Assembly: GCF_002727185.1 (NCBI RefSeq)
Contig: NZ_NIZW01000011.1
Coordinates: 1 to 64,000, forward strand
DNA: 64,000 bases
Direction of reading: 5' to 3'
From: Rhodopirellula bahusiensis
GTDB lineage: Bacteria > Planctomycetota > Planctomycetia > Pirellulales > Pirellulaceae
The translations under genes were made by a program, and so were the position numbers. Positions 1 through 14,574 of this stretch are shown here, in pieces. Numbering within the stretch: position 1 is the first letter of the stretch; each line of letters begins with the position of its first letter. The notes below the pieces were generated by a model. It was not told where the DNA came from. It ran no database searches and saw nothing but the letters and a program-made list of their open reading frames with translations.

Positions 1-550
1 GCTTGCGGATCTGATCTTGGATCTCTTGCTCACGTTGCGATGGGCCACCAGCCGCGGCCGCTGCAATGCTTCGGTGGCTCTCGATTGTCCGCCGGCGGGC
101 CTCGGCTTCTCGCAATTCAACAAGCAACTGATCCCCTTTGGACCGCATGTCAGCGATCATCGACTGAAAGTCAGCTTCGTGTTGTTTGATGGCTTCGTTG
201 ATGTCCGCGATTTCCCGAATCACTTCGGACTCGCCCGCCAACACTTCTCGCGATTTCAAAAACTCAACTTTGCGGGCAACGTCGGATTCCAATTGATCCA
301 GCGAGTAGCCCACTGCATCGCAAACGCTGCGGACGTTCGCCGCGGTTGGCTGCTTCGCTTCGGGATTCACTTCGGCATCGGCCAACGCATCGATCAACCC
401 ATCGAGTGATTCAATTCGCTGGGCGTCTTCGGTGGCTTGCGATTCTCCCACCTTGCCAATGAGCTTTGCGAATCGACTCGACAACGTCGGCTTGGGTGTC
501 GTTGGGGCGTGCTGGGTTTGTCCGTGATAGGTCTTGGTGGCGAGTGCCAT
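1..550 (-). CDS. Coiled-coil element protein, partial (runs off left edge)
   Basis: Reading leftwards from ATG at 550 the frame stays open for about 183 codons to the window edge, so the C-terminus is missing. After a Thr/Pro-rich start (about residues 10-25), the protein is dominated by Glu, Lys, Ala, Gln and Arg with long stretches free of proline, for example EVLAGESEVIREIADINEAI, which suggests an extended coiled coil. It follows the capsid candidate on the same strand after a 121-bp gap, so by position it is probably a morphogenesis or structural protein of the integrated element. I do not recognise the family. The strand and frame are well supported by the unbroken frame and codon use; the function is a guess from context. 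Confidence 0.65.
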   Translation of the reverse strand, partial: MALATKTYHGQTQHAPTTPKPTLSSRFAKLIGKVGESQATEDAQRIESLDGLIDALADAEVNPEAKQPTAANVRSVCDAVGYSLDQLESDVARKVEFLKSREVLAGESEVIREIADINEAIKQHEADFQSMIADMRSKGDQLLVELREAEARRRTIESHRSIAAAAAGGPSQREQEIQDQIRK

Positions 551-671
551 GGCGTCATTCCTCGAGCGTGTAAATGGGCGTCTGTCACTGCCGCAAGCCC
601 GCACCGACGAATCGGGAACGGGCTTGCGGTGCTTCGAAGGTGGAGACGACACCTCCAAAGTGGAGGGCGGA

Positions 672-1904
672 TCAGGCGGTTTGATTCTTGACCGCGTATC
701 GCCAGTTCTTGACGGCGGCCGCAATGCGGCCCTCGATCGAGACGTAGATCGTTTTGTTGCCTGGGTCATACCAACGTTCGCGGCGGCCCTGGGTGCCGTA
801 GCCTTTGAAGTAACCCCGAACCACGGTTGCGGTGCGGAGGCGGGTTGGGCTTCGCATGCCGTACCATGTCGATGCACTGACGCTGCGGAGTTCGCTTTCG
901 GGAACCACCGCAACCTCACCCCGGTACAAGCCAACGTTCTCCGTGGTGGTCGCGACTTTGTTTTCGAGTCCATCGCGATTGAGCGGGAAGAAAGTGCGAC
1001 GCGCGGCTTGGGCGGGTGCCCCGGTTGGTGTCAGGATCGTGTTGAGCGAACCACGAACACGTTGCTGCGTCCCGATCCCGCCGATGTCGCTGTAGAGCGT
1101 TTCCATCTCGCCCCACTCCGAATCCGATGGGACCGCACCACCGCTGCGAATGTTGTTGTTGGTCGCGGTGCCAACGTTGGGACGATCGGCGAACAATGGA
1201 AAGCCATCGAGCAAGTTCTCGTTCGACGTGAAGCGATCAAGAACAAGCCGGTTCTGGGTGGTCTGCCAAGCTTCCTGCAGCCCCAGCATCCCTTCGGAGA
1301 ACGCGTTCATGTCGTCATCGGCGATCATCTTCGGAGTCCACCCGAATTTGTTCCCGAACCGCCGGACGAACACGTAGGAAAGAACTTCTTCTTCGAGCCC
1401 GATCTCTTTGAATTGCTCGGCGTCTTGCAGCTCGTCCAGCTCGTCCACCGTCCCGCGGTTGATCAACGGCATCGGCTTGAAGTCGTTCAAAGCGTTTGGC
1501 ATCAAGGCGGAGACTTGATCGAACGAGTAGTCGTCATCAAGCTCGACCGTATCCAGGAACTTGTTGGCCAATCCGGACAAGATGTTCGGGAAGTCGCCGG
1601 GGGTGGCGTTTGGGGATCCACTGGCACCGATGTACCGGCGATCCTCATTGGCTGCAAAGCTCGTAACGCGATCCAATCCCCCAAGCTGCATTGCGCGTTC
1701 CGCGATCAACTCGGGGTTGCCGTAGATGTCAACTTGATGGCCGGCATGTTGCAGGCATTCGGCAGCAATCGCCCACAACGGTTTGTTGGCCATCGCCTCG
1801 GCACCCTTGGACAGCTCGAAAGTCGGCCTGTCGGTGGATCGATAAGCCAACGCGTTGATAGCATCGATTGCGAATTGTTCTTTCGGCTGAGTGGTTCCGA
1901 ACAT
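672..1904 (-). CDS. Phage major capsid protein candidate (HK97-fold, gpT/protease-fusion type)
   Basis: The 410-residue protein resembles the capsid part of Mu gpT-like and protease-capsid fusion proteins. Visible hallmarks are an N-terminal helical segment (MANKPLWAIAAECLQHAGH, about residues 38-56), a central acidic region, the phrase RFGNKFGWTPKMIADDDMN (about 183-201), a segment GFPLFADRPN typical of these capsids, and a C-terminal strand region ending TIYVSIEGRIAAAVKNWRYA. The family builds the icosahedral shell. No protease domain is attached here; a scaffold or protease would have to be encoded elsewhere, possibly left of the window. The start ATG at 1904 has a purine-rich stretch upstream. 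It sits 75 bp below a small unknown gene. The family call rests on remembered sequence features, not on a search. Confidence 0.7.
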   Translation of the reverse strand: MFGTTQPKEQFAIDAINALAYRSTDRPTFELSKGAEAMANKPLWAIAAECLQHAGHQVDIYGNPELIAERAMQLGGLDRVTSFAANEDRRYIGASGSPNATPGDFPNILSGLANKFLDTVELDDDYSFDQVSALMPNALNDFKPMPLINRGTVDELDELQDAEQFKEIGLEEEVLSYVFVRRFGNKFGWTPKMIADDDMNAFSEGMLGLQEAWQTTQNRLVLDRFTSNENLLDGFPLFADRPNVGTATNNNIRSGGAVPSDSEWGEMETLYSDIGGIGTQQRVRGSLNTILTPTGAPAQAARRTFFPLNRDGLENKVATTTENVGLYRGEVAVVPESELRSVSASTWYGMRSPTRLRTATVVRGYFKGYGTQGRRERWYDPGNKTIYVSIEGRIAAAVKNWRYAVKNQTA

Positions 1905-1979
1905 GCTTCTGGTCTCTTTCGTTGGAGTTGATGCGGGCCGTCAGACCGCTGTGAATCGTGTTTGGTGTTGGTGGTCTGA

Positions 1980-2234
1980 TCAGCCAACGGGATCCAGTAG
2001 GACCCGGCCGGCGGGTTGGCCAACTTCGATGTGTTGGACATGGAACTTTGCGTCGCCGATCTGAACAGCGTCACCGACATAGTGGGCAACTTCATCGGCG
2101 TCACCGATCTCGATGAATGCGGCGGCACGTTGCGATGGATACGAACCTTGCTTGTGCATTGCTGTTCGCACCACGTGGACGCTTTGAGACTCGATGTCGG
2201 CAGGTTGGCCGATGGTCAGTTCGATGGTTGTCAT
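1980..2234 (-). CDS. Small hypothetical element protein
   Basis: An 84-residue protein starting at ATG 2234, whose start overlaps the stop of the upstream HTH gene as ATGA (2231-2234), so translation is probably coupled. The sequence is rich in acidic residues and short beta-like stretches (FIEIGDADEVAHYVGDAV, VQHIEVGQPAGRVLL). It lies directly upstream of the capsid candidate, where phages often keep small head-decoration or adaptor proteins, but no motif identifies it. A longer frame begins at 2285, but the overlap start is preferred. Confidence 0.6.
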   Translation of the reverse strand: MTTIELTIGQPADIESQSVHVVRTAMHKQGSYPSQRAAAFIEIGDADEVAHYVGDAVQIGDAKFHVQHIEVGQPAGRVLLDPVG

Positions 2235-2485
2235 TGAAAGTTCGATGGGTTGAATTGAAAGGTGTCGGCTTGCGATTGAAGCCAAATGGTTTGCTTAATG
2301 TGAGACTGGATCCGCTCGGCATCGGCATGGGCATAGGTGAAGGAACTGCCGATAACCCCGTTGGGCTGGATCCCCAACTTGCTGGCCACGCTGTCAACCG
2401 TTGCCAGTCGCAGCCCGAAACGAGTCGCGATGTCGCTGTTGGTCGTTCGCTCATGCAGCGGCTCGGGCTGGTTGGCCATGCTCAC
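2231..2485 (-). CDS. Small HTH protein (MerR/excisionase-like), second of a tandem pair
   Basis: The 84-residue protein has a predicted helix-turn-helix around SDIATRFGLRLATVDSVASK followed by a short loop and a second helix (YAHADAERIQSHI), the layout of small MerR-like or excisionase-like DNA-binding proteins. The likely start is GTG at 2485, which overlaps the stop of the preceding gene as GTGA; ATG at 2479 is the alternative. It has the same fold pattern as its upstream neighbour (2482-2703), suggesting a duplicated or heterodimeric regulator pair. By family it would bind DNA in element control, excision or packaging; which of these cannot be told from sequence. Confidence 0.6.
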   Translation of the reverse strand: MSMANQPEPLHERTTNSDIATRFGLRLATVDSVASKLGIQPNGVIGSSFTYAHADAERIQSHIKQTIWLQSQADTFQFNPSNFQ

Positions 2486-2703
2486 TGGATCCCTTGGCGG
2501 TCCATGGTCGGGGTGGTGTTCCCATTGCCGCCACGCAACACCGCGGCAATGCGTTCAACGTCGTGGGGGTGGTAGTAGCCAACGCCATTGAGACGCTGTT
2601 GAGGAACGATGCCCAATTGCTTGATGATGTCCATTAGGCGGGGAACGGGCGTTTGAAAGTGGCCGGCGATCCGGCCGACAGATGTCAGATCGATGTCTTG
2701 CAT
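2482..2703 (-). CDS. Small HTH protein (MerR/excisionase-like), first of a tandem pair
   Basis: A 73-residue protein with an HTH-like segment (SVGRIAGHFQTPVPRLMDII) and the wing-plus-helix signature GYYHPHDVERIAAVL, which in small MerR-like proteins follows the recognition helix. It starts at ATG 2703 and its stop overlaps the start of the next gene. The 19-bp near-perfect palindrome at 2764-2782 lies about 60 bp upstream of the start and is a plausible operator. It leads the short run that continues through a second HTH protein and an unknown protein to the capsid candidate, so it could be a late-gene regulator. The HTH fold is inferred from pattern only. Confidence 0.6.
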   Translation of the reverse strand: MQDIDLTSVGRIAGHFQTPVPRLMDIIKQLGIVPQQRLNGVGYYHPHDVERIAAVLRGGNGNTTPTMDRQGIQ

Positions 2704-2763
2704 TTGGTGGCCTTATGGGTTTTGGGTTTGGATGCCTGAAGTTTTAGCCATGTCCAGAACAGC

Positions 2764-2782
2764 CCTTCTAGAATCTAGAAGG
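2764..2782. promoter_or_regulatory. 19-bp palindrome upstream of the HTH pair
   Basis: CCTTCTAGA and TCTAGAAGG are exact reverse complements around a single A. It lies 6 bp beyond the stop of the zinc-ribbon gene and about 60 bp upstream of the first HTH gene. No T-run follows on the leftward strand, so an operator is more likely than a terminator. Confidence 0.45.
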
Positions 2783-2788
2783 ATTCGC

Positions 2789-2977
2789 TCATAATTTCGG
2801 GGGTTCGTAGACTACCGTCAGCAATTGACCGCAGTCTTGGCATTTACTGGGACGCTCTCGAACCCCGTCGCCAACATCTTTCGCTCCCCGTGTGGCCTTG
2901 ATGTTTGTGCCTCCGCACACGCGGCAGACGGGGTAGGTCACAAACACATAGCGTGAGTCCTGCTCTTCCGAATTCAT
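2789..2977 (-). CDS. Small zinc-ribbon protein
   Basis: A 62-residue protein starting at ATG 2977, with GAGGGA 12 bases upstream as a possible ribosome-binding site. It contains two CxxC pairs, CRVCGG and CQDCG, about 20 residues apart, the usual pattern of a zinc ribbon. It may bind DNA or act as a small adaptor; no specific family is recognised. It sits between the second zinc-finger protein (3004-3345, same strand) and the HTH pair. A longer frame opens at 3076 but overlaps the neighbouring gene, so the shorter start is chosen. Confidence 0.6.
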   Translation of the reverse strand: MNSEEQDSRYVFVTYPVCRVCGGTNIKATRGAKDVGDGVRERPSKCQDCGQLLTVVYEPPKL

Positions 2978-3003
2978 TGGGCCGGTCCCTCGGTGGTTTT
3001 TGG

Positions 3004-3345
3004 TCACGACGCTCGGCTGCATCGGGGGGCGTTCGCGACTTTCACGGGTGACCGTCCAGCGGTGAATCGCATCCACCCATCTCCGCGGCGGACGTACACG
3101 CTCTGCCCACGCACCCGGATGCGGTCCTGCGGGTCAGCGTCTAACGGGCATGCGTGTGCCGGCACTTCGCCACGTGACTCCAACAGATCGATGATGCGAT
3201 CCCATTGGCGAGTCACGGCGCGACCATCTGTCGCGCACGGCCGACTGCAGTATTTGGTCCGCCGTGCCTCACCTGGCGGCAAGAATTTTTTCTCACTGCA
3301 CCAAAGACAAACGACGGCAATTTTTTCGGATGGTGGTCGCGGCAT
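3004..3345 (-). CDS. Small zinc-finger protein (CxxC...CSxxC type)
   Basis: A 113-residue protein from ATG 3345. Residues about 10-35 hold CLWCSEKKFLPPGEARRTKY followed by CSRPC, the treble-clef-like pattern found at the N-terminus of several phage HNH-associated and anti-restriction proteins. The rest is basic and ends in Arg/Ser-rich sequence with no HNH motif visible. It lies just beyond the iteron-like cluster and reads leftwards. ATG 3402 is an alternative start. Function unknown; the metal site is the only supported statement. Confidence 0.55.
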   Translation of the reverse strand: MPRPPSEKIAVVCLWCSEKKFLPPGEARRTKYCSRPCATDGRAVTRQWDRIIDLLESRGEVPAHACPLDADPQDRIRVRGQSVYVRRGDGWMRFTAGRSPVKVANAPRCSRAS

Positions 3346-3619
3346 GGCTCGGGGTTTCCTGTTTGCTTGTTTTCTGTGTGTCTGAACCCCGGGCCTGTCC
3401 ATCGCAGAGGGGAAGGAGTCATTCCTGGGAAGGACCCAGACGGGGGGGCTTGGGTTGCTGTAGTGCCCCGATCGTGGTCGTTCATTGGTAGCTCAACCGT
3501 TGTGTCTCGGCTGTGTTTGGTTGGTGGTCGCCTCACTGGTTGCCAGTCGTTGCAGGCGAGAATTTTATTCATTGAAAGTTTTTTCGTTTTGCGTTCATAA
3601 AATTTCTCTTGCTTGATGT

Positions 3620-3836
3620 GTTGCGCTTGCGCGGATGTTGCGCTTCTTTTGCATTTCAACCCAATGCCGTTATTGCTACGTTTATTGCTCTCTCGCCCTT
3701 CCTTTCTTCTCTTCTTGTGTGTGCGTGAGAGTTAAAGCGCAACAAGCGCAACAAGAGAAAGAAACCCAATGAATCGCGGGGTCGATCTTGTTGCGCTTCG
3801 GTTTTCAAAGCGCAACAAAGCGCAACGAAGCGCAAC
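3620..3836. repeat. Iteron-like cluster of eight 9-bp repeats; candidate replication origin
   Basis: Eight exact copies of AAGCGCAAC or its complement GTTGCGCTT lie within 217 bp: complement orientation at 3620-3628, 3637-3645 and 3790-3798, forward at 3735-3743, 3744-3752, 3808-3816, 3818-3826 and 3828-3836. Two forward copies abut and the last three sit 10 bp apart, about one helical turn. The flanks at about 3570-3605 and 3837-3890 are AT-rich. The 537-bp gap 3346-3882 that contains them holds no convincing gene and lies just past the 3' end of the D5-type helicase gene. Iterons with adjacent AT-rich DNA are typical of origins bound by initiator proteins; an operator array is the alternative. 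Confidence 0.6.
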
Positions 3837-3882
3837 TGACTTGATAAATTTTTTCTGTTTCTCGTACAGATTGCTTCTGTTC

Positions 3883-6630
3883 TTAGAAATTTAATTTTTC
3901 TTCCTTCGGCATTCCGTGGTAGTCGTTTAGCTGGACGCCTTTGAAACCTCTCGCTGTGGTGATCCCGTCTCGAAATGCCTCTGACTTGATTCCGAACCGC
4001 TGGGCGATCGCGGCGTTCATCCGCTTAGCGCTCATCGATTCCCCGTCCGCTTCCGACGTGTTGTCTTTGGCCCAATGGCGGTAGGCTGCGACGAGGGAAC
4101 TTGTCTTGACCGTCGGGCTCGCAGATGCCGAGTAAGTGACAAGCTCATCGATGAATGCGGCAGTCGGATTTTGCGACTTCCGGTAGTCTTCTACCTTCGT
4201 TCGCATGGCTTTGCTGATCGTGAAGCCTCCCTGCTCAAATAGCCTTTTCAGTCCGGCAAGTGCCCAATTGAAAACGCCCGCAAGTTCACCGCTCCGCACC
4301 CACCATTCGGGCGTTTCCATTCCGACGATTTTCTCTTCCTCGGAAACCTTTTGGTCAAAGCCAACGAGCAACATCCGGCGCCATAACCCGTCGGAAGCGT
4401 CACGAATACGGGGCCGGTGATTCCATCCGAAAACACACTTTGCGGTGGGGGACATTGAAAACGGTTGCCCGTTCTTCCCTTCGAATTGCAACCTTTCGCC
4501 AATACAGAATTGCTTAAAGAGTCCTTCGTTAATTTTCGCCGACTCGTTTGCATCGGGATCAACATTCAAAGCCTTTCCAACGCTGTTGATTAAGGCAAAC
4601 TGGTTGCCGCCGAACCCGTCCAATTTGATATTGGACGTGTTTTGAACACCAACTAGGGCGGTATAGATGCCGGACAGCAATACGCTCTTTCCAGTGCCCC
4701 CGTCACCATCGCAGGCCAGAAAACGCTGGAACGGATTCTCGGGAACTAGCAGATAACCGGCGAACTCCTGGACAAGCATCCGTGAGCATTCGTCTGGAAG
4801 CGACGTTTCCAGATAGTGGGTTAGCTTTGGCGAGCTAGCGGTTTTATCAAACGAGTATCCGAGTTTGGTGATAGCAAACCAATCAGGGTTGTGATCCGTG
4901 AAGCAGTCTTCGGGGGGAGCTCCAGCGATAACCCGGTCGAGATCCAACAAGCCATTTTCGAGCGAAAGAAGGTACCGGCCTCCTTCGGGATCGTTTAGAA
5001 GACAAGGCATCTTCACGCGACTGCTTGAAAGCAAGGTTAAATGTTTCAGCTCCTCAAAAACGTTTGCGACCATCGGATTGCTGATCGACTTCTTTTTAGT
5101 TTTCTTAGGCTTCTCCTCATCGTCCTGGATCTCTTGCTCTGCTATCGCAATCCTGACAAGTTCCGAGTTGATTGAGCTACGAAGTTTGGCTTTCAACTCA
5201 TCCTCTGTTAGTTTCCGCCAACCACCGGACTTGTAGCGATAGAAGTCTGAACGCCAATAGGCAAGCCGGCCGTTGTGGTTTTGGCCATAGGTCGAAAGAT
5301 TAATTCGAGCGAGCCTGTTTGCGTCGTGTGGATCCTCAAACTCTCGAAGATCATCAAGCAAGTCTTGCAGAGTCGGCTTGTCGATCCCGTGTTTCTTTTT
5401 AAGGCTTTCGATATGCCCAGCAGATGCTTTGTAATCCAATTCCTTGATGTCGGCACCGGCTGCTATCGCATCGTCAATTCCTTTGTGCTCCGCCGGCCAT
5501 GTTTCAACCAACACCAACGGGGACCATTCAAGCGTTGCAAGGTGATCATGCAGTTCTGATAGCGATCTCGCAACTTCTTTTTTGTCGGTAGCGTCATTGT
5601 CGAAAGCTAGCAGGATTTTGGCGGGCCGATATTGCTCAACCGCCGGTAGTGCGTTCTTCCAGCAAGATACCCCCGGGGCTGCAATTGTCAGAATGCCGGT
5701 TTGCTTCGTGGCAATGTCCGCCTTGAGCTCGCCCTCGGTGATGCGAAGCGTCTCAGGGCTTCCAGCGTGATGCGGAACGTGGGCGGGCGTCCCCGGCGAA
5801 ACCCCCGGGGCGGTTGCTGAGTTTGACGTTAGCCACGTGTATTTCGAGTCGCTCTTTGGTTTGTCAGGCCGAATACGGATTGCAATGATTCGCCCTTGAG
5901 TGTCTCGAACGGGTATCATCAACGAAGGTGAAAAGACTTGAATCTTCGCTGCCTTCTTGTAGATGCCTGGAACTAAGTTCGCGACTTGGCGACGGTCGGC
6001 GACCCCCCGCAGTTCGGCGTCAAGCTTGAGCGTCTTCATTGTTTCAATCTTAGGACCGCTGACACTGAAATAGCCGTTCCTTACGATGTCCGATTCCGAT
6101 AGGCCTCGTTCTTTCAATGCTAACCGGTGTGGTTCACTGAGCCCGTACAGCTCCGCCAGCGTGGAATAAACCTTATGGCGAATATTGGCTGTTTCATCGT
6201 CGATTTGGCTTTTGGGTCGCCGCGGCTCCTGTTTCGGAAGTGGCTTTGTTTTCGGCTTTGGCGTTGATTTTGAGATTCCCAAGCGATCTCCGACCATGTT
6301 CACGGCCTCTTCAAAGCCGACACCGCAAAGCCACATGACCGAACCAAATCCATCGCCTGTTTTCCTGTCGTCGCACGCATAGCAACCGCAACGGCCTTTT
6401 TCGTTATCGAAAAGATTGAACTTTGATTTTCCGCACGTTGGGCATGGGTGCGGCTTTCCATCAAAGTATTCTTGGCTGTAACCAGTCAGTGCGGACAATA
6501 GGTTATCCCATTGACCGCTAGCGGCAGCGCGAACGACTTCCTTGTCGTGGTTCATTTTGCAAGATATGAACGACTCTTGCGTGACCGTCAGGGCTTCGTT
6601 GCCAATCGATTCGGGTGCATCAAATTCCAT
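3883..6630 (-). CDS. Primase-like zinc finger/Toprim/D5 SF3 helicase replication protein
   Basis: A 915-residue phage/plasmid replication protein. Domains in order: a CHC2-type zinc finger near the N-terminus (CPTCGKSKFNLF then GCYAC), a Toprim-like region (ITEGELKADIAT and ILLAFDNDATD), and a C-terminal D5/P4-type helicase with Walker A GDGGTGKSVL, a conserved FQRFLACDGD lead-in, and the NHRPRIRDASDGLWRR motif typical of SF3 D5 ATPases. The family opens origins and primes replication of the element. The start ATG 6630 overlaps the upstream stop as TGATG and has GGAGG ten bases before it; a frame opening at 6885 overlaps the upstream gene and is rejected. The iteron cluster follows its 3' end. 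Domain calls are secure; whether the primase is active is unknown. Confidence 0.85.
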   Translation of the reverse strand: MEFDAPESIGNEALTVTQESFISCKMNHDKEVVRAAASGQWDNLLSALTGYSQEYFDGKPHPCPTCGKSKFNLFDNEKGRCGCYACDDRKTGDGFGSVMWLCGVGFEEAVNMVGDRLGISKSTPKPKTKPLPKQEPRRPKSQIDDETANIRHKVYSTLAELYGLSEPHRLALKERGLSESDIVRNGYFSVSGPKIETMKTLKLDAELRGVADRRQVANLVPGIYKKAAKIQVFSPSLMIPVRDTQGRIIAIRIRPDKPKSDSKYTWLTSNSATAPGVSPGTPAHVPHHAGSPETLRITEGELKADIATKQTGILTIAAPGVSCWKNALPAVEQYRPAKILLAFDNDATDKKEVARSLSELHDHLATLEWSPLVLVETWPAEHKGIDDAIAAGADIKELDYKASAGHIESLKKKHGIDKPTLQDLLDDLREFEDPHDANRLARINLSTYGQNHNGRLAYWRSDFYRYKSGGWRKLTEDELKAKLRSSINSELVRIAIAEQEIQDDEEKPKKTKKKSISNPMVANVFEELKHLTLLSSSRVKMPCLLNDPEGGRYLLSLENGLLDLDRVIAGAPPEDCFTDHNPDWFAITKLGYSFDKTASSPKLTHYLETSLPDECSRMLVQEFAGYLLVPENPFQRFLACDGDGGTGKSVLLSGIYTALVGVQNTSNIKLDGFGGNQFALINSVGKALNVDPDANESAKINEGLFKQFCIGERLQFEGKNGQPFSMSPTAKCVFGWNHRPRIRDASDGLWRRMLLVGFDQKVSEEEKIVGMETPEWWVRSGELAGVFNWALAGLKRLFEQGGFTISKAMRTKVEDYRKSQNPTAAFIDELVTYSASASPTVKTSSLVAAYRHWAKDNTSEADGESMSAKRMNAAIAQRFGIKSEAFRDGITTARGFKGVQLNDYHGMPKEEKLNF

Positions 6631-7139
6631 CACGCCCGCGCCTCCATCGATGCAAACACTTTGTGCAGATTCTTGACAGATCGCTTTGAGACGCCGACCA
6701 TCGTGTTGAGCGATCCACTGAGGCTTGTTGTGGAACCATGCTGTGGGAACCCGGCTCGATCGGCGGCAATGATCATTGCCCCCGGCGATACGTAGGGGCA
6801 GCCATAATTTCTGGCGATATGTTTCAGACGGTAGCTCGAAACCGTCCCAGCCTTCACGGATGTGAGCGGGCTGGCTTCGAGCCACGCCAGCGCGGCCAGT
6901 ATCTCAACCATCTTTGGCCGCTTGCCGGGGTGATCCCATCGCCGAAGCCCTCGGAGCGGACCAAACTGATACCGACCCTCAATGATTCCGTCCTCAGAAA
7001 CGAATTTCAGGAGGTTTGTGTTTGCCTCCACGAACGACGGATAACCCAACCGCTGCAATCGAGCGTAACAGTGTTCTTTCGTGGGAAACTTCGTCAGAGA
7101 GTTTTGGTTGCCGGAATCCGGCGATAGGTCTACCATCAT
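6630..7139 (-). CDS. Hypothetical element protein coupled to the replication gene
   Basis: A 169-residue protein starting at the first of two ATG codons (7139), with AAGGAAG about 7 bases upstream. The middle contains WDHPGKRPKMVEILAALAWL followed by SSYRLKHIARNYG and YVSPGAMIIAADRAGF; I recall similar SY-LKH...YVSNGAFI-type phrases in small plasmid and phage proteins of unknown function. Its last base overlaps the first base of the helicase start codon (TGATG), which implies translational coupling and a joint role in replication or copy control. No catalytic motif is visible. Confidence 0.6.
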   Translation of the reverse strand: MMVDLSPDSGNQNSLTKFPTKEHCYARLQRLGYPSFVEANTNLLKFVSEDGIIEGRYQFGPLRGLRRWDHPGKRPKMVEILAALAWLEASPLTSVKAGTVSSYRLKHIARNYGCPYVSPGAMIIAADRAGFPQHGSTTSLSGSLNTMVGVSKRSVKNLHKVFASMEARA

Positions 7140-7203
7140 GAGTGACTTCCTTGTTGTTTTGCCGGCCCGACCCTCAACGATCTGCCGGCGAGATTGAAAA
7201 ACG

Positions 7204-7244
7204 AAAACTCCAGCCACCGGGTAGCCGTCGGTGACTGGAGTTTT
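7204..7244 (-). terminator. Terminator hairpin after the DUF1580 gene
   Basis: Arms 7204-7219 and 7229-7244 pair around a short loop with one mismatch (core CTCCAG/CTGGAG and CACCG/CGGTG), and T-runs follow on both strands. It begins within a few bases of the stop of the DUF1580 gene, so the replication module downstream needs its own promoter. Confidence 0.65.
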
Positions 7245-7248
7245 TCTT

Positions 7249-7566
7249 TTAGATGCCGGCGGCTTCGAGCTCTGCCGCGGCGCGTTCGCGGGCCTCGGGA
7301 TCTCGGGCCGGCGAGGATTCTTCCGGAGCCTCGTCCCCAAGCTTGGCTGCGGTAACCGCCTCAAAGAATTGCGTAATCCATTCTTCGGTGGTTCGTTTCA
7401 CACCACCGGCATATTGGACACGAAGTTTTTGGCCGGCGAGCCCACGGGTAGTCCAGCGATGCATTGTCGCCGCAGATGGACGCTCACCGGTGCGTCGCTC
7501 GACAACTTGAGCGGCGCCACCTGAGAGTCGCAGAAGTCGATCCGGATGCGAGTTGTTCTGATTCAT
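7249..7566 (-). CDS. DUF1580-like small DNA-binding protein (excisionase/AlpA-like)
   Basis: A 105-residue protein from ATG 7566 with AGAAAGG about 6 bases upstream. The central pattern is LLRLSGGAAQVVERRTG, then ATMHRWTTRGLAGQKLRVQY and EWITQFFEAVTA, matching DUF1580, a small family I associate with Rhodopirellula and believe to have an excisionase-like winged HTH: a W-x(3)-GL helix with a basic strand after it. Position between integrase and replication module is where phages and satellites place AlpA/excisionase regulators. The C-terminal tail is acidic and Ala/Glu-rich. The domain call is fairly secure; the role is inferred. Confidence 0.7.
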   Translation of the reverse strand: MNQNNSHPDRLLRLSGGAAQVVERRTGERPSAATMHRWTTRGLAGQKLRVQYAGGVKRTTEEWITQFFEAVTAAKLGDEAPEESSPARDPEARERAAAELEAAGI

Positions 7567-7629
7567 GGCAAACCTTTCTGAGCAACAGGGAAATTGATGC
7601 TTAGAAGGATCCCAGATCACCTGGTCGTT

Positions 7630-8643
7630 TTACCGGTCGCTTGCCCGGTCGGTTTCCCGGTCAGGCCATGTTTTTAGAATTTTCTTTGCCGGAATCCTGC
7701 GATGTCCTTTCATCGCAGTTCCATCTGGTCGTTGAGCTTGGGCAATTATGGTGCCCCATGCTTCATGGGGTTCACCGCCAGTTCTGAACAGTCCACGCAG
7801 TTCTCCCTTTTTGTCGGATGGTTTCGCTTCGTTTCTAAGGTGCTCATCCGATAACGGCCCGCCATTGGCGTCGACCAATCGCTCGAGCACGGTGGCTCGA
7901 CATCGATTTATCATGGGAATCACTTTTCCGTTCCACCTTGGGTGGAGGTAATCACCGTTGACAATTTCCAGGACATTAGAGGAACTGGATGTGGTCAGAA
8001 ATTCGGTCTTATTCTCAGAGCTCCGCTCTGATGCTGCTCCAAACATTCGCTCAATCCAAACCTCGATCCGATCAAGCTGAGTCTTTATCGTGCGTTCAAT
8101 ACCGGCAAAGAGAACTGAATCGATGTCTGTGAGTTCACACAGAACCATTTGATCGCGTTCATTCATCAGCCTGAGCTTTATTGAGTCTTCATGGTCGTCC
8201 GTCATCGTGGATTCAACGTTTACACGATATTGGTGCAACGCTTCTACTACAGCCAACAGCCTCGAAACCCTTTGACGATCAGACTGCAGTGACCCCAAAA
8301 CCGACTTGTCATAGTTTGATAGTCGCATCGGCTTCCATTCAGCACCCAACTGAGCTATCAGGCTGTTGAGTTGTGGACGCAATTGATGCTGTTGTGGAGT
8401 TGCCTGAGAACTCCATGACACCAAGGGGCTTGAGTCTCGCGACGAAAAGCCTTGGGTCGTAGCAAAGGCTCTCACGGTATCACGGACTTCGTTGCAGATT
8501 GCCGCGCGATCACGTCGAAGTGAGAGCGTGAACGGTTCTTGGGTGATGCAAATTGCGAGACGCTCGATCAGCACGGCAATTCTTGTTGCGAAAGCACCAT
8601 GAGCCGCTAGCGCATTTTCAATCGACTTGATGGTCTCAGACAT
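7630..8643 (-). CDS. Hypothetical element protein between integrase and DUF1580 gene
   Basis: A 337-residue protein starting at ATG 8643, chosen over a frame opening at 8715 because GGAAAG precedes it. It is mostly helical in composition with many Arg, Glu and Leu residues (residues about 1-250), then a basic C-terminal third containing KKGELRGLFRTGGEPHEAW and a Lys/Arg-rich tail. The end of the protein resembles a winged-helix or DNA-binding region by charge only. I do not recognise the family. It is transcribed with the element genes and lies 137 bp downstream of the integrase stop. Confidence 0.55.
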   Translation of the reverse strand: MSETIKSIENALAAHGAFATRIAVLIERLAICITQEPFTLSLRRDRAAICNEVRDTVRAFATTQGFSSRDSSPLVSWSSQATPQQHQLRPQLNSLIAQLGAEWKPMRLSNYDKSVLGSLQSDRQRVSRLLAVVEALHQYRVNVESTMTDDHEDSIKLRLMNERDQMVLCELTDIDSVLFAGIERTIKTQLDRIEVWIERMFGAASERSSENKTEFLTTSSSSNVLEIVNGDYLHPRWNGKVIPMINRCRATVLERLVDANGGPLSDEHLRNEAKPSDKKGELRGLFRTGGEPHEAWGTIIAQAQRPDGTAMKGHRRIPAKKILKTWPDRETDRASDR

Positions 8644-8780
8644 CTTTTCTTTCCACTTGCGGTGCGCGGTCGCTGGCGGTGTGGAAAGCAACCGCCAGCG
8701 AAACCGGGCACCCAATCAGCCAACCGTCGTCGGCGATTGTGTTTTTTGCTCAATGACCGTCGCCATTGAGCAACGAAATT

Positions 8781-10085
8781 CTATCCAATTTTGCGAGCGA
8801 CTTCACGACCTTTCTCAGCGTCACGCTCGGCATAGACTTGCGTGACATCCGCGGCGGCATGTCCAAGAATCACCTGGGCGGCTTCGATACCGAATTGCTT
8901 TCGGATCTCCGTTCCCCGGGTGTGCCGCAACTGGTTTGGGTGCCAACGGTGTTGTTTTTGCCATGCTTTCAATTCTTCCGACTGGGACCCGGTCAGTCGT
9001 CGCATACGTGCAGCGTTCGTTTCGCCGGCTTGGCATCCCAACGGCTCTGGAGCCGGAAATGCGATCGCGCACGCATACTTGATCGCATGTGCGTAGCTAC
9101 CAGTATTGAACGTGGTCTGGGAAATCAGTTTTCGACTTCGCTTCATCGATCGTCGATCCGCTTCGGATCGTTTGCCGCGGCGGTTGCCGCTCGATGGCGG
9201 AGTGACACGCTGGGATGCCTTCAAAGCCCGGCGTTGCTCAACCGCTTCGGCCATCGAGAAACACACCTCGTCGGACTCTCTGAGTAGGTACCTGGCGAGA
9301 ATCAACTGAGCATCCGGGCCGATGAAGACGGTCCGACTTCGGCCATGGTGTTCAGTCTTGTGACCATCGACGCGATATTCCCAAACGTCTTCGTCTCGGT
9401 GGATGCTAGCTGGTGTCATTACACACACTTCACCAGGGCGGGCGCCGGTCAGAAGCTGGAACCGAATCATGTCGGCAGTGACGCGGGGCAAATGCGGCAA
9501 CGTTGCTTCAACCACTTCCAGCGGCACCGGCATAATGGGGTCGGACTCGCGGACCTGGCACCGACCTTTCCGCAAGCCATCGACCGCCAGCAACGCTTGA
9601 TGCACCGATGGCGGAATCAGCTCCTCGCCCACTGCCCATTTGAACAATCGCTTCAGCCTGCCGGCGTTTTTGTTGACGGTCGATCGAGCCTGCCCACGGT
9701 CGATCCAGACCTGCCGAACCGCCTTAAACGCGATCGGCCCAAACTCTGTTGCCGGAGCGTTGCCGTAGAGTCGCTTGATGTCGCGAATAACCAGTCGATA
9801 GGCTTCGACTTCATTGGTCGGCTCACCATTCTTGACGTACCAGCCCTGGGCGAACTTCCAGAACGCGGCGAGCACTTCGACAACGGTGATTTCCGTTTCA
9901 TCGGTTCGGTTGGCCAACCGCCGGCCGTTGGTGAGCCATTCGGCTACCAGTCGATCGTATTCAACTCTGCTGGTTTTGGTGCCATGTGGGCCAAGGTAGT
10001 GGTCCTTCCCGCCAAGGTTGACGATGGCCTGCCCGCTTGCTTTGTGCTTGCGGTACTTGGGCAGCGACTTCGAGAGTTTGGGCAC
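8781..10085 (-). CDS. Tyrosine recombinase (element integrase)
   Basis: A 434-residue site-specific recombinase that would integrate and excise the element at the neighbouring tRNA-His gene. The start is taken as GTG 10085 because GGAGG lies 8 bases upstream and the resulting N-terminus (PKLSKSLPKYRKHKASGQA) matches what I recall of planctomycete integrases. Visible catalytic elements: Arg I in TGARPGE (about residue 216), box II NQLRHTRGTEIR with Arg at about 387, His in LGHAAAD (about 409) and the nucleophile Tyr in VTQVYAERD (about 418). The first box II position is Asn rather than the usual His, a variant I associate with planctomycete integrases. The 22-bp palindrome just upstream may control it. 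Confidence 0.9.
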   Translation of the reverse strand: MPKLSKSLPKYRKHKASGQAIVNLGGKDHYLGPHGTKTSRVEYDRLVAEWLTNGRRLANRTDETEITVVEVLAAFWKFAQGWYVKNGEPTNEVEAYRLVIRDIKRLYGNAPATEFGPIAFKAVRQVWIDRGQARSTVNKNAGRLKRLFKWAVGEELIPPSVHQALLAVDGLRKGRCQVRESDPIMPVPLEVVEATLPHLPRVTADMIRFQLLTGARPGEVCVMTPASIHRDEDVWEYRVDGHKTEHHGRSRTVFIGPDAQLILARYLLRESDEVCFSMAEAVEQRRALKASQRVTPPSSGNRRGKRSEADRRSMKRSRKLISQTTFNTGSYAHAIKYACAIAFPAPEPLGCQAGETNAARMRRLTGSQSEELKAWQKQHRWHPNQLRHTRGTEIRKQFGIEAAQVILGHAAADVTQVYAERDAEKGREVARKIG

Positions 10086-10106
10086 GTGAAACGCCTCCAA
10101 TGTTCT

Positions 10107-10128
10107 CAAAACGGTATGTACCGTTTTG
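10107..10128. promoter_or_regulatory. 22-bp perfect palindrome upstream of the integrase
   Basis: CAAAACGGTA at 10107-10116 and TACCGTTTTG at 10119-10128 are exact complements around TG. It ends 22 bp upstream of the chosen GTG start of the integrase and 85 bp from the tRNA 3' end, placing it in the presumed promoter/attachment region. Candidate repressor operator or arm-type site. Confidence 0.45.
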
Positions 10129-10212
10129 GGTCCTTAGGAAAACGCCGCACGGGCGACCTGCCCGGTATCTACTTGAGCCGCAAATTGCGGGAGATTCGGC
10201 TACGAGAGAGAG

Positions 10213-10287
10213 GGTGGCTGAGGGGACTCGAACCCCCGACCTTCGGAATCACAATCCGACGTTCTAACCAACTGAACTACAACCACC
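10213..10287 (-). tRNA. tRNA-His (GTG anticodon)
   Basis: Read on the minus strand, a complete cloverleaf: acceptor GGTGGTTG pairs with CAGCCACC, the anticodon stem TCGGA/TCCGA encloses loop TTGTGAT with anticodon GTG, and the T arm is GGGGG TTCGAGT CCCCT with one G-T pair. The extra G at position -1 opposite C73 that marks histidine tRNAs is encoded. CCA is not encoded. The 3' end faces the integrase, so the tRNA end is the likely attachment site and the gene has stayed intact. Confidence 0.95.
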
Positions 10288-10710: not shown

Positions 10711-13700
10711 ATGTCGCAATGGGAAGACTACACCGGCGATGAGTGGATGCGTCCACTGGCTAGCCAAGACACACGCACCAAGCACATCCTCGATCGTGAG
10801 ACGCAGGGCATCAAGCCACGACCACGGTTGCAGGCTCCACCCTATAAAGCGGGTGATACTTGGGGCGAATTCACGCTCGAAGAGTGGTTGGGATCAGGCA
10901 CTCATGGTTGGGTTTTTGCTGCGCGTGAGAACGCCACGGACAAACCGGTTGCGCTGAAAATTTTGGCCGTCGAAGACGATCCGGGTACGACGCTGGCGAA
11001 GACCGGTTTTCGTCGGATGGCAAAGCTGAACCATCGCAACCTGATGCGATTGCACGGGATTCACGAGCACGACAAGGTTGTCGCGTTCAGCATGGAGCGG
11101 ATTGACGGGATCAACTTGACCGCCGCCATCCGTCGCTGGCGTGATGAACCGTTGCACGTGGCTTGCGAACACATCACCGAACTGGTTCGCCAAGTCGGAT
11201 CGGCGATCGGATGGATGCACGCACGAGAGTTGGTTCACCGTGATCTAAAACCCAGCAATATCATGGTGACGGACGACTACAAGCGTTACATCGTCATCGA
11301 TTACGACTCCGCGGGGATGTTTCAAGAACACGATGCGGAATCGATGCGGGCGTACCTGATTTGGACGCCGATGTATGTCGCACCGGAAGTGTTGGTGCGT
11401 CAGCGGCACACGCCTTCGAGCGACGTTTTCAGTTTGGGAATGGTCGTGTTGGAAGCACTGCGTGTTTTCAGTGCTGCACAGTATCGTCGCGAAGGATCGT
11501 TGCAGAACGAGTCGCGACCCACTGACGGAAGCGATGATTCGTCAGGCATCCGCCGAGACAAGTCCAACGAAGAACAAGATCGGATGTTGATCACCAACGC
11601 CGTTCGCGGCTTGCATCCGAACATTCCGGCGGACTTGTTGGAAACGTTGGACGAGATGCTGGCGCCAAACGAGGCCGACCGCCCGATGGCGATGACTTTG
11701 TCGCGTTTGGGGCGTCCACTCGAAACGATGCAGATGACTCGGATCACCGACGTGGATTCCAGTCGCGTTCGCGAAGCCACCCAGCAAATTCGCCACAACG
11801 AATTGGCTCGCATTCACCGGTGGAGTCACTTGGTTTTGGGTGGCCAAGTCCAGCGATTGCATCTCAGTGGCGATTCAGGGATCGGCAAATCAACGCTGTT
11901 GGACGTTGCGCTCTCGCAGTTGCGTTCGCTCAATTGGGCGCAGGTCTTTGTCGCTCGGTGCCAGCAACGCGATCAAAAGCCGTTGCAAGCTTTCAGTCAA
12001 ATCTCCGACGAAATCACCATGCGGTTTCGCGGGATGGATCGTGAACCCTTGCAAGTCGATTCGGTCACGGTCAGCGTCTTGACGAGCATCTTGCCGGGCT
12101 TGGCGGAAGTCTTGGAGGTAGATCGCTCACAGCCATTGTTGCAGACCTCGCCGACTCGTCCCGGTGGATTGGAAGCCGCTCTGAAGGTTTGTGAACGTTT
12201 GCGGGAGTATGGTCCGGTTTTCTTTGTGATCGACGACGTTCAGTGGGCTGACCGAGACACGATTTCCGTGCTGGACTACCTGCAGTCGGGGAGCATGAAT
12301 CGGCCCAAAGCACCCGAGTTGCAGGGGCTTGGACTGATCACCGTGTCGCGAACCGATGGCGACCGACAAATCACTTTGCCTGATGAGACGATCGAGGTTG
12401 GGCCGTTGCCGGACGAAACGGCGATTGAAATGTTGATCCGGGAAGCGTCCAAGTATGAATTGGAAATTCCGGACGCACACTTAAGGGATTTGGCGGGCCA
12501 AATCGACGGTTTGCCCTATCGGCTGGACGCTTGTTTGGAAGAGCTTCGTCCGGGTGGATGGTTGTCCGATGCGATTCAAAAGACTGACGGTGAAAGCGGC
12601 AGCGTGTCCGTTCCGTCGATGGAAAGGCTCTGGCAAACACGATGTGAAAAGTTGCCGCCCGGTGCTTTGCAATGGCTTCGACGAATCGCGGCAGCCGGAC
12701 GCCAACTTCCGGTGGAAGAACTCCGAGGCTGGGACGAAGATGAATCGTCCTTGGAAGATCACCTGGATGAGCTGCAGCGACATCGGCTGATTGTTCGTGG
12801 CGAATCATCTGGGCCAACGGTGCAGATTTGGCATTCGAGGTTGGGCGAAAAGGTTCTGGCTCAAATGTCGGAAACTGAGATTCGCCAATTGCACGCGGAT
12901 TGGGCGGAGACGTTGTCTCACGTTCGGCCAGACGTTGCCAATGTGATCGCGTCGCACTATCAGCGAGCCGAGATTTACGAACCACTTGCGAAGTGGGCGA
13001 AGTTGGCTGCCGAGCAAGCCCAACAGATGTACGCTCACCGAGAAGTTGCGTCGTGGTTGCAGGTTGCTGCGGAACATTCAGCGGGTGATCAGAAGATCTC
13101 GTATTTGAAGGACGCGTCGTTTGCTTGGCATCGCAGCGGACTGCTCAACCGAGCGGCTTCGACTCACGAGGCATTGGCTGGGTTGTTGGACGGGCATGCT
13201 TCCGTCGAGCATGAGCTGCACCGAGTCGAGTGTCTGATCCGCTCGGGAGAATTCAGCGACGCGAGCCGATTGGTTGAACCGTTGATCAATCAGTTGGGGC
13301 TTCCTCGGGTGAAGTCCAACTGGGCGTTCAAGCTATCGGTCATCTGGCGATTCATTCGTCTGTTGCCGATGCAGCGGGACCTCGCGGTCGATCGTGAACA
13401 AGCGAATCCTGATCGGACGTGGCAAGAGGGCAGCCAGATCGAGGCCTGCGTGCGGCTGATTCGACCGCTCAGCATCATCAACAACAACGTCGCCGTAGAG
13501 TGGTCCCTTTTCGCGGCTCGGCAAGTTCGTTTGTTGGGAACGGTTGGCGAGCGATTGCACTTGGGTGTCGGTGAAGCGGTGTTCGGGTCGTACGGTCCCG
13601 GCCGACCGCGGCAGCGTGCGAGCCAAAATTTGCAGCGAATGCTTGAGTCACTCCGGCCCGATGACGACCCGTCTTGGCACGGTGACGTCAACAGTGGCTT

Positions 13701-14574
13701 GGCATGGCACGCCGCGATGGACGGTCGATACGCGGACTCGTTGGAGCCGTGTGCGAAAGCCAAACAGTTTTATGGTTTGAGCGAGCACGCGAAGAACTTT
13801 GAAATTGCCCACATGGCCTACGTCGAGTTGGCATCGTTCTTCCAATGCGGCATGATTTTCGAGATGAAGCGAACGGTCGCGGACATGCAAGCGGAAGGCC
13901 GGACGACGAACGATCAATTCGTGACCATCATGGGAACGTTGGGGTACGCGTCCGTCGCGTTCTTTGCGGACAACGATTTGGCCAGGATGGATTTGGCGGC
14001 GGATCGCGTTCGCGAATGCATGAAGCACGTCGGGCCTGCGTCGTTCTTGTTTGTCCAGCAATTCAAGGACGCGCTGCTGGATATCTATGCAGCGGACGTT
14101 ACCAACGGTGCATCCAAGCTCGATCTGTTGCCTCGCCAAATGCGATACTCGGATTTGAACCGGGTGCAGATGATCCGGATCAACTTCTTGGAGTTCGTTT
14201 GCTTGTTGTCGCTTCAATCGTTGAGCTGCAAAGCAAAATTGGCTGAAACATCCATGCTTCGAGCGATCGAAAAGCTGCGACGCGAACGTTCCGAATTCGC
14301 GACGATGAAAGCCGACTTCTACGAAGGCATCCAAATGGCTCGCAGTTCCGTTGCGGGGACGGATGCTTACGGACGCGACCTGTTGAACACGGCACGTGCG
14401 AAAGCCGAACAACTTCGACTGACACCATTCGTTCTGGCTGCCGGTGACGAGCTGAAGTGGCTGGAGTCCAGCGATCAACCATCGGACTTGGAAGCCTACT
14501 TGGCCGACCAAGGCGTGGTCGCTCCCTCGCGTTTCGCAAGGCTCTACCGTGGCGTTGACCGGCCGGAAGCGTGA
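10711..14574 (+). CDS. Serine/threonine protein kinase fused to an AAA-type ATPase and helical repeats
   Basis: A 1287-residue multidomain signalling protein. Residues about 53-330 are a Hanks-type kinase: glycine loop GSGTHGWVF (61-69), lysine in ALKIL (83), catalytic loop HRDLKPSN (176-183), metal-binding DYD in place of DFG (197-199), and APE (224-226). A P-loop ATPase follows with GDSGIGKS (about 387-394) and Walker B FFVIDDVQWAD (about 503-513), as in bacterial kinase/AAA16 fusions and STAND-type regulators. The remaining 700 residues are helical and TPR-like. No membrane segment is apparent, so it is probably cytoplasmic. The family phosphorylates target proteins in response to signals bound by the C-terminal repeats. 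It is unrelated to the element and transcribed away from the tRNA. Confidence 0.88.
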   Translation: MSQWEDYTGDEWMRPLASQDTRTKHILDRETQGIKPRPRLQAPPYKAGDTWGEFTLEEWLGSGTHGWVFAARENATDKPVALKILAVEDDPGTTLAKTGFRRMAKLNHRNLMRLHGIHEHDKVVAFSMERIDGINLTAAIRRWRDEPLHVACEHITELVRQVGSAIGWMHARELVHRDLKPSNIMVTDDYKRYIVIDYDSAGMFQEHDAESMRAYLIWTPMYVAPEVLVRQRHTPSSDVFSLGMVVLEALRVFSAAQYRREGSLQNESRPTDGSDDSSGIRRDKSNEEQDRMLITNAVRGLHPNIPADLLETLDEMLAPNEADRPMAMTLSRLGRPLETMQMTRITDVDSSRVREATQQIRHNELARIHRWSHLVLGGQVQRLHLSGDSGIGKSTLLDVALSQLRSLNWAQVFVARCQQRDQKPLQAFSQISDEITMRFRGMDREPLQVDSVTVSVLTSILPGLAEVLEVDRSQPLLQTSPTRPGGLEAALKVCERLREYGPVFFVIDDVQWADRDTISVLDYLQSGSMNRPKAPELQGLGLITVSRTDGDRQITLPDETIEVGPLPDETAIEMLIREASKYELEIPDAHLRDLAGQIDGLPYRLDACLEELRPGGWLSDAIQKTDGESGSVSVPSMERLWQTRCEKLPPGALQWLRRIAAAGRQLPVEELRGWDEDESSLEDHLDELQRHRLIVRGESSGPTVQIWHSRLGEKVLAQMSETEIRQLHADWAETLSHVRPDVANVIASHYQRAEIYEPLAKWAKLAAEQAQQMYAHREVASWLQVAAEHSAGDQKISYLKDASFAWHRSGLLNRAASTHEALAGLLDGHASVEHELHRVECLIRSGEFSDASRLVEPLINQLGLPRVKSNWAFKLSVIWRFIRLLPMQRDLAVDREQANPDRTWQEGSQIEACVRLIRPLSIINNNVAVEWSLFAARQVRLLGTVGERLHLGVGEAVFGSYGPGRPRQRASQNLQRMLESLRPDDDPSWHGDVNSGLAWHAAMDGRYADSLEPCAKAKQFYGLSEHAKNFEIAHMAYVELASFFQCGMIFEMKRTVADMQAEGRTTNDQFVTIMGTLGYASVAFFADNDLARMDLAADRVRECMKHVGPASFLFVQQFKDALLDIYAADVTNGASKLDLLPRQMRYSDLNRVQMIRINFLEFVCLLSLQSLSCKAKLAETSMLRAIEKLRRERSEFATMKADFYEGIQMARSSVAGTDAYGRDLLNTARAKAEQLRLTPFVLAAGDELKWLESSDQPSDLEAYLADQGVVAPSRFARLYRGVDRPEA

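Follow-up and report, generated by a model that had tools for sequence, protein, structure and literature searches.

An integrated tRNA-His element of Rhodopirellula bahusiensis with its own capsid and tape measure genes, a probable phage satellite of the Planctomycetota

Gene content of the element

The stretch analysed here, called the window throughout, comprises 64,000 nucleotides of Rhodopirellula bahusiensis (Planctomycetota; Pirellulaceae), positions 1 to 64,000 of contig NZ_NIZW01000011.1 (C11) in assembly GCF_002727185.1. Its left end is occupied by a run of genes from an integrase to a coiled-coil protein, all on the minus strand from 10254 down to 1, which an earlier, sequence-only reading of this DNA had described as far as the capsid gene; the run stops where it does because the window begins at the first base of the contig, a cut made by the assembly and not by biology. 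We argue that this run is probably the integrase-proximal part of a Planctomycete phage satellite of about 19 kb, which would supply its own major capsid protein (MCP) and tape measure protein (TMP) to virions otherwise built by a helper phage.

At the right border lies a tRNA-His(gtg) gene (10212..10286, minus strand; ARAGORN), the integration site, overlapped by a 45-bp attachment (att) repeat at 10210..10254 (no strand assigned). The integrase that the sequence-only reading had seen beside the tRNA 3′ end is a tyrosine integrase at 8781..10109 (minus strand, as are all genes named in this section; PF00589, 1.2e-9; phrog_1, 9.5e-27), whose homologues also adjoin tRNAs in related genomes (G398, 1.3e-118; G246, 4.1e-124; G184, 4e-121). 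The capsid candidate of that reading holds up as well, being an MCP of 410 aa at 672..1904 (PF25209, 1.5e-13; phrog_4523, 1.9e-27) without the protease half, and beyond it a coiled-coil protein (cc; 1..550) starts at 550 and loses its 3′ end at the contig end, leaving 183 of about 298 aa. Replication appears to be served by a D5-type primase-helicase with an N-terminal Cys motif and a Toprim-like region (3883..6885, the start possibly at 6630), which had likewise been proposed and which matches DUF5906 (7.9e-14), DUF3854 (1.6e-9), D5_N (2e-7) and the DNA primase family phrog_864 (6.3e-59). The DUF1580 protein was also correctly named (7249..7620; PF07618, 1.2e-5, above the cutoff) and is a candidate AlpA-like regulator or excisionase.

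The remaining genes are small, apart from one of 361 aa. An 84-aa protein within a conserved cassette (1980..2234) reaches the Pfam family Phage_attach at a sub-threshold value (E 0.078). It is preceded by two small helix-turn-helix (HTH)-like proteins of 84 aa (2231..2485) and 73 aa (2482..2703), which have no family match in Pfam, PHROGs or a further scan; the 73-aa protein recurs across the element group, with homologues 71–82% identical on contigs C10, C42 and C26 of the same genome and 43–50% identical in two genomes of another genus. Further upstream are a Zn-ribbon-like, Cys-rich open reading frame (ORF) of 95 aa with CxxC pairs recognised by eye (2789..3076) and an HNH-like one of 132 aa (3004..3402) that matches the HNH endonuclease family phrog_1271 (1.4e-4). 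The tandem HTH and small zinc-finger proteins reported previously are therefore readable as ORFs, one of them with a family match, whereas their HTH and Zn-finger naming is by eye. The iteron-like repeats reported with them did not hold: a search for direct repeats of at least 14 nt and at most 600 bp apart yielded twelve families, each of two short, imperfect copies, and nothing arranged as an array. A 361-aa protein taken from the ORF list (7630..8715) has no significant match in Pfam (best 0.038, below the cutoff), PHROGs (both scanned as 7630-8658) or PADLOC. Outside the element, positions 10711-14574 of the window encode a large protein resembling Ser/Thr kinases by eye, a chromosomal neighbour of the tRNA-His gene with homologues in the genus.

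Boundaries and reassembly across contigs

The second copy of the tRNA-His 3′ end, by which the sequence-only reading had hoped to locate the far border, exists: the 45-bp att repeat recurs without a mismatch on contig C46 (C46:34159-34203). On the chromosomal side of that copy C46 carries a gene assigned by eye to the SRAP family, and this gene and the kinase gene to the right of the tRNA-His lie 0.67-7.9 kb apart on one contig in five of the 12 other genomes of the genus that were searched; in the other seven, their best matches fall on different contigs or far apart. When the C46 and C11 flanks are joined, they align unbroken over the junction to uninterrupted sites in G304 (82%) and G297 (80%), which confirms insertion at the tRNA-His.

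C46 stops 236 bp beyond its att copy, inside the left end of an insertion sequence (IS), and contig C55 breaks off within the right-hand end of that IS. The two carry a matching 8-bp target duplication, which none of the three other right ends seen shares with C46; the remaining IS ends match one another, and on the strength of this shared duplication C55 is assigned to the window element. Read in reverse, it carries a Rep gene, a gene that we call p305, a second tyrosine recombinase, a 101-aa ORF and a TMP fragment. The assembled pieces and the IS amount to 18.2 kb; adding the stretch missing between C55 and C11, about 1 kb by analogy with a sister element (E3, below), brings the whole to about 19 kb (about 17.5 kb without the IS), of which about 9 kb lies left of the window on other contigs.

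Contig C6 had been a candidate continuation of C11, as it terminates within the final bases of a cc gene. The join was rejected: C6 has its own tRNA-Ser att copy with a partner on C42, and C55 pairs with C46 by the IS duplication. Separately, the IS copy at C4:23106-24796 (L069) is flanked by 8-bp duplications that match the C23 and C15 ends and not each other, and contig C4 may be misassembled or recombined there.

Sister elements in the same genome

The window element (E2) is one of four in this genome, each at a different tRNA site. The most informative is E1 (C10:104240-121568), a gap-free 17.3 kb bounded by 41-bp repeats at tRNA-Leu(taa), in which a protein search found a second MCP at C10:114498-115727 with 97% amino acid identity to that of the window. 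The two elements share a cassette of HTH protein, 84-aa protein (88-91% identical), MCP and cc, and E1 has a DnaB in place of the D5 protein; its cc is a complete protein of 298 aa, to which the part read in the window is 91% identical. E3, at tRNA-Ser(tga), is split over C6 and C42 and encodes a 776-aa TMP (phrog_1533, 1.4e-85), and E4, at tRNA-Leu(tag), lies partly on C25 and partly on C26 and has a 23-bp repeat.

The nearest phage and the virion proteins

A single phage contig, IMGVR_UViG_3300038701_001826 (L025), is the sole match in the viral_contigs collection, whose scans reach close relatives only, both for the MCP (69%) and for the E3 TMP (69% in the best segment). It encodes an 859-aa protease-MCP fusion whose protease half belongs to phrog_53 (9.2e-61), and the window MCP aligns to this fusion from about residue 452 onward, the protease and linker half being absent. 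The L025 portal matches 148 phage records and portals in the PDB (to 2e-8); its large terminase (TerL) is weakly supported, by two phage records of which one is annotated as a putative large terminase (4e-8), and matches no PDB terminase. The TMP fragment on C55 comprises the C-terminal 499 aa, shares 55% identity with the E3 TMP across 232 aa and matches the TMP family phrog_28 weakly (1.6e-4). A single-sequence model of the window cc predicts mostly long helices (predicted local distance difference test score, pLDDT, 81), and we take the protein to be a candidate scaffold. No relatives of the MCP or p305 were found in the named phage collection, none of the MCP in genome_contigs, none of cc, p305 or Rep in viral_contigs, and the MCP profile had no match in the PDB.

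A repeat of about 80-110 bp with a short inverted motif occurs twice in E1 (C10:105879-105986 and C10:115848-115928) and once in E4 (C25:2193-2300). Together with a weak occurrence upstream of the L025 TerL, it was considered as a packaging site and set aside, the motifs not being found in E2 or E3.

Selection and the p305 protein

Substitution patterns indicate that the genes scored are maintained. By the Nei-Gojobori method in a custom script, the ratio of nonsynonymous to synonymous substitution (dN/dS) between E1 and the window element is 0.055 for the MCP, 0.156 for the cc part and 0.142 for the 84-aa protein, and pairs of p305, Rep, recombinase and TMP give 0.09-0.36, some pairs being near saturation. 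The MCP is under strong purifying selection.

The p305 gene directly follows the second recombinase in E1, E3, C55 and the related element of genome G385. Its copies (L037:14926-15843, L056:3808-4584, L016:4138-4842, L153:9248-9808 and L152:9771-10337) share an RNxIVH motif, invariant in five sequences, which presumably corresponds to the RxxxxH motif of HEPN proteins. Of the three copies scanned with PADLOC, one matched CARF-HEPN weakly (0.0067). Judged by these sequence features, p305 is possibly a HEPN-like RNase that acts in interference.

Relatives in other genomes

Homologues of the backbone or cc occur in 16 of 396 genomes of the order with a first set of queries, and a second set found homologues in 26 of 241 genomes of the family, our own genome counted in both; 11 neighbourhoods, 20 regions and a few others were followed up out of all matches. 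In fourteen stretches, among them E1, the borders are formed by direct repeats that copy part of a tRNA gene; two of these repeats are short, with 20 bp in G196b and 26 bp in G330. Virion genes are distributed unevenly among them: an MCP is present in two (E1, G385), a head protease in four (G385, G398, G184, G452) and a TMP in three (G300, G385 and G367, the last by eye and by one-member TMP matches that we attribute to it), so that seven of the fourteen carry at least one of the three. A 1024-aa protein of G246 resembles a TMP by eye and has no PHROGs match. The 155-aa ORF upstream of the TMP in the G300 element (L123:598-1065) could be a tail assembly chaperone by position and appearance, and it too has no PHROGs match.

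The MCP of the G385 element belongs to PF05065 (5.9e-18) and is accompanied by a TMP_3 protein and a ClpP-type protease; these Pfam families are not the ones matched by the window MCP and the E3 TMP. The element also encodes homologues of the recombinase (3.1e-164) and p305 (2.5e-29), and its virion slots may have been filled from phage families unrelated to those that supplied the window element. Proteases without a recognised MCP occur in G398, G184, G452 and the G377 contigs. Stretches without found boundaries hold further combinations, namely TMP, Rep and DnaB in G485 (L168), TMP and DnaB in G411 (L169), cc and TMP in G428 (L181), and protease and cc in G515 (L178) and in further contigs of G398 and G377. 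A 32-bp repeat at first suggested that contig C181 of G377 (L157), with protease and cc, was a bounded element, but it is not counted: the tail of a second cc-like gene (56% identical over 81 aa) opens the contig, and the repeat may mark a tandem array. Similar sequence stands at both ends of this contig (1-1600 and 9400-11268), possibly from tandem elements.

The same tRNA-His is occupied in a sister species, where an att-bounded element of 6.6 kb lies at 991-7592 of L125 (G299:C1:2155500-2164800). Its one recognised gene is an integrase fragment.

The search for packaging, portal and tail genes

PHROGs scans of chosen ORFs and reference searches found a large terminase or portal in none of the fourteen tRNA-bounded elements. 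In six elements (G377 included), 113 of 171 ORFs yielded no TerL, portal, connector or tail family among 25 of 26 families listed; 133 of 147 ORFs of nine more elements yielded none apart from TMP among the best 25 of 44 families listed, each of the other 19 being represented by one member at an E-value of 4e-6 or weaker; and 44 of 60 ORFs of E2-E4 yielded none apart from the TMP of the window element. The ORFs left out were those already assigned (integrase, primase, helicase, methylase, recombinase, MCP, protease, TMP), short or overlapping ones, in the first six elements those on the opposite strand, and a 370-aa ORF of G196b presumed to be an integrase, to which its similarity is weak (8e-5). 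E1, att-bounded and gap-free, showed no TerL, portal, connector or tail family in its scanned ORFs, and neither E1 nor the window element as read has a head maturation protease. TMP apart, the TerL, portal and tail families of a complete prophage were not found in the elements as read, a lysis module not having been searched for separately. The reference search recovers TerL (4.4e-43), portal (1.3e-12) and TMP from a prophage of the genus, a control that is not independent, as the prophage was located with the same queries. Outside the fourteen, L184, a stretch without found boundaries, has a reference match to TerL (7e-4), and in L159 a TerL (2e-26) lies near a weak Rep match.

These results support the preference of the sequence-only reading for a satellite over a complete phage, both in gap-free E1 and in the 13 other tRNA-bounded relatives. 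Of the portal, terminase and tail genes by which it would have told a prophage from a satellite, no portal or large terminase was found left of the window, as far as the sequence is read, and one tail gene, the TMP on C55, is present there. Its comparison with capsid-forming satellites did not stand, as is set out under the comparison with known satellites.

Nature of the element and alternative explanations

As far as it is read, the window element has no full complement of virion and packaging genes, and it is a discrete integrated element with an integrase, att copies and an empty site in relatives, the features of a satellite. It combines a part that resembles Ccm, the capsid homologue of a staphylococcal satellite, with one that resembles the TMP of a Vibrio satellite (both described below), so that a chimeric head and tail with packaging by the helper is the most economical reading. 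We infer helper dependence, co-assembly into chimeric virions, a change of head size or tail length, and the roles of cc and the HEPN-like protein. An L025-type helper would infect or be induced, whereupon the element would excise and replicate with its own primase-helicase. The satellite MCP, with cc as candidate scaffold, would enter or redirect the helper head, and the satellite TMP would take the place of the helper TMP in the tail. The helper would give protease, portal, terminase, connectors, tube and tail tip, and the mixed particles would carry the satellite and lower the helper yield.

Several observations pull the other way. No helper, excision, replication or particle was observed. 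No TerL or portal of the L025 type is found in this genome as readable, so a resident helper is missing; the same TerL query reaches TerL in four other genomes of the genus (G298, G302, G303, G306). Seven of the fourteen tRNA-bounded elements (in G246, G482, G196 twice, G330, G307 and G299) have no recognised virion gene, so virion genes are not universal in the group. One of the 44 ORFs scanned in E2-E4 has a weak match to a terminase small subunit (phrog_57, 7.7e-4), a match that did not recur when ten HTH-like ORFs, some of them from outside that set, were tested. The window cc aligns weakly to the cc of other elements (hhalign probability 37.6%), and the structure model of the MCP is unusable (pLDDT 37.5). 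Finally, sequence is missing for the roughly 1 kb that separates C55 from C11 and for seven contigs (0.57-2.76 kb) that read as N and may contain unread parts of E2-E4.

It is conceivable that the virion genes serve as defence cargo, with MCP, protease and TMP homologues acting as dominant-negative decoys that poison the assembly of an invading phage, while the element spreads by its integrase or by general transduction and not in chimeric particles. Single virion parts without their partners, such as the MCP without protease in E1 and the proteases without a recognised MCP in G398, G184, G452 and the G377 contigs, fit such poisoning, the HEPN-like p305 suggests interference, and Ccm strongly lowers helper titres (PMC8569155). 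We nevertheless consider this unlikely, since MCP and TMP both track one phage type, the MCP is as highly conserved as expected for a protein that still fits a shell, and the elements' own replication modules and four tRNA sites in one genome suggest active movement. The same conservation bears on whether the elements are decayed prophages that lost terminase, portal and tail genes. Their MCP and TMP are genuinely homologous to phage proteins and stand in an order like that of a phage, and the 6.6-kb G299 element, at the same tRNA-His and with an integrase fragment as its sole recognised gene, fits decay; yet the elements are att-bounded with one backbone in separate copies, their ORFs are intact with dN/dS of 0.055-0.36, different replication modules surround one cassette, and the same restricted choice of genes recurs in other genera, once with an MCP of another Pfam family. 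We accordingly give decay a low probability. A complete prophage, its packaging and tail genes hidden in the C55-C11 gap and the seven N contigs, seems highly improbable: an arrangement like that of E3 would leave about 1 kb for the gap, each N contig is at most 2.76 kb, only about 9 kb of the element lies left of the window, and no such genes were found in gap-free E1. The satellite reading is the one that we consider probable.

Comparison with known satellites and significance

The closest parallels each cover one half of the proposed strategy. In SaPIbov5, a Staphylococcus aureus pathogenicity island (SaPI) of the cos type, the capsid homologue Ccm is described, in PMC8569155, as the sole SaPI protein in small particles, located in pentamers, with an N-terminal delta domain and 24% identity to the helper capsid protein. 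Such islands resemble the window element in being integrated satellites with a capsid-protein homologue and without portal or terminase, and there Ccm redirects the helper shell. They come from another phylum. They also differ in that the N-terminal part of the phage fusion is missing from the window MCP, whose identity to the nearest phage found is 69%, and in that cc accompanies the MCP, with a TMP in addition in the window element. For the other half, the phage-inducible chromosomal island-like element PLE11 of Vibrio cholerae encodes its own TMP, which replaces that of the phage in chimeric tails, its virions contain capsid proteins encoded by the phage ICP1, and putative tmp genes are noted in other satellites, capsid-forming phage-inducible chromosomal islands (cf-PICIs) included (PMC12987554). 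A satellite-encoded TMP is common to both, in our case the C55 fragment and the E3 TMP, recognised as genes; here, in contrast, MCP and TMP come from one element, and a tail assembly chaperone gene is at most a positional candidate in the G300 element.

The sequence-only reading had likened the element to cf-PICIs, which it resembles as an integrated element with its own MCP. PMC10690885 defines cf-PICIs as encoding portal, protease, connectors and terminases, a definition that the window element does not fit: neither it nor E1 yielded a portal, terminase or connector, and the protease is absent from both as read, although present in some relatives. The MulchRoom and MiniFlayer satellites share satellite-encoded capsid proteins with it and differ in carrying terminases, portal, scaffold and adapter, according to the same source (PMC10690885). 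Among the matches listed from open-licence literature there was no paper on Planctomycete phage satellites, which is no proof of absence.

Capsid homologues such as Ccm and tape measure proteins such as that of PLE11 are each known already, from satellites of pathogens; what is found here is a combination of the two kinds in one element, in an environmental phylum. The four elements in one genome possibly compete for, or share, one helper. More tentatively, and with the odds somewhat against it, the relatives may make up a satellite group across this Planctomycete family with interchangeable slots (MCP or head protease, cc, TMP) filled from different phages, in which one satellite would re-specify both the head and the tail length of its helper and leave packaging to it. 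The protease-only, MCP-only and TMP-only relatives form a natural set with which to ask which single virion parts suffice to capture a helper particle.

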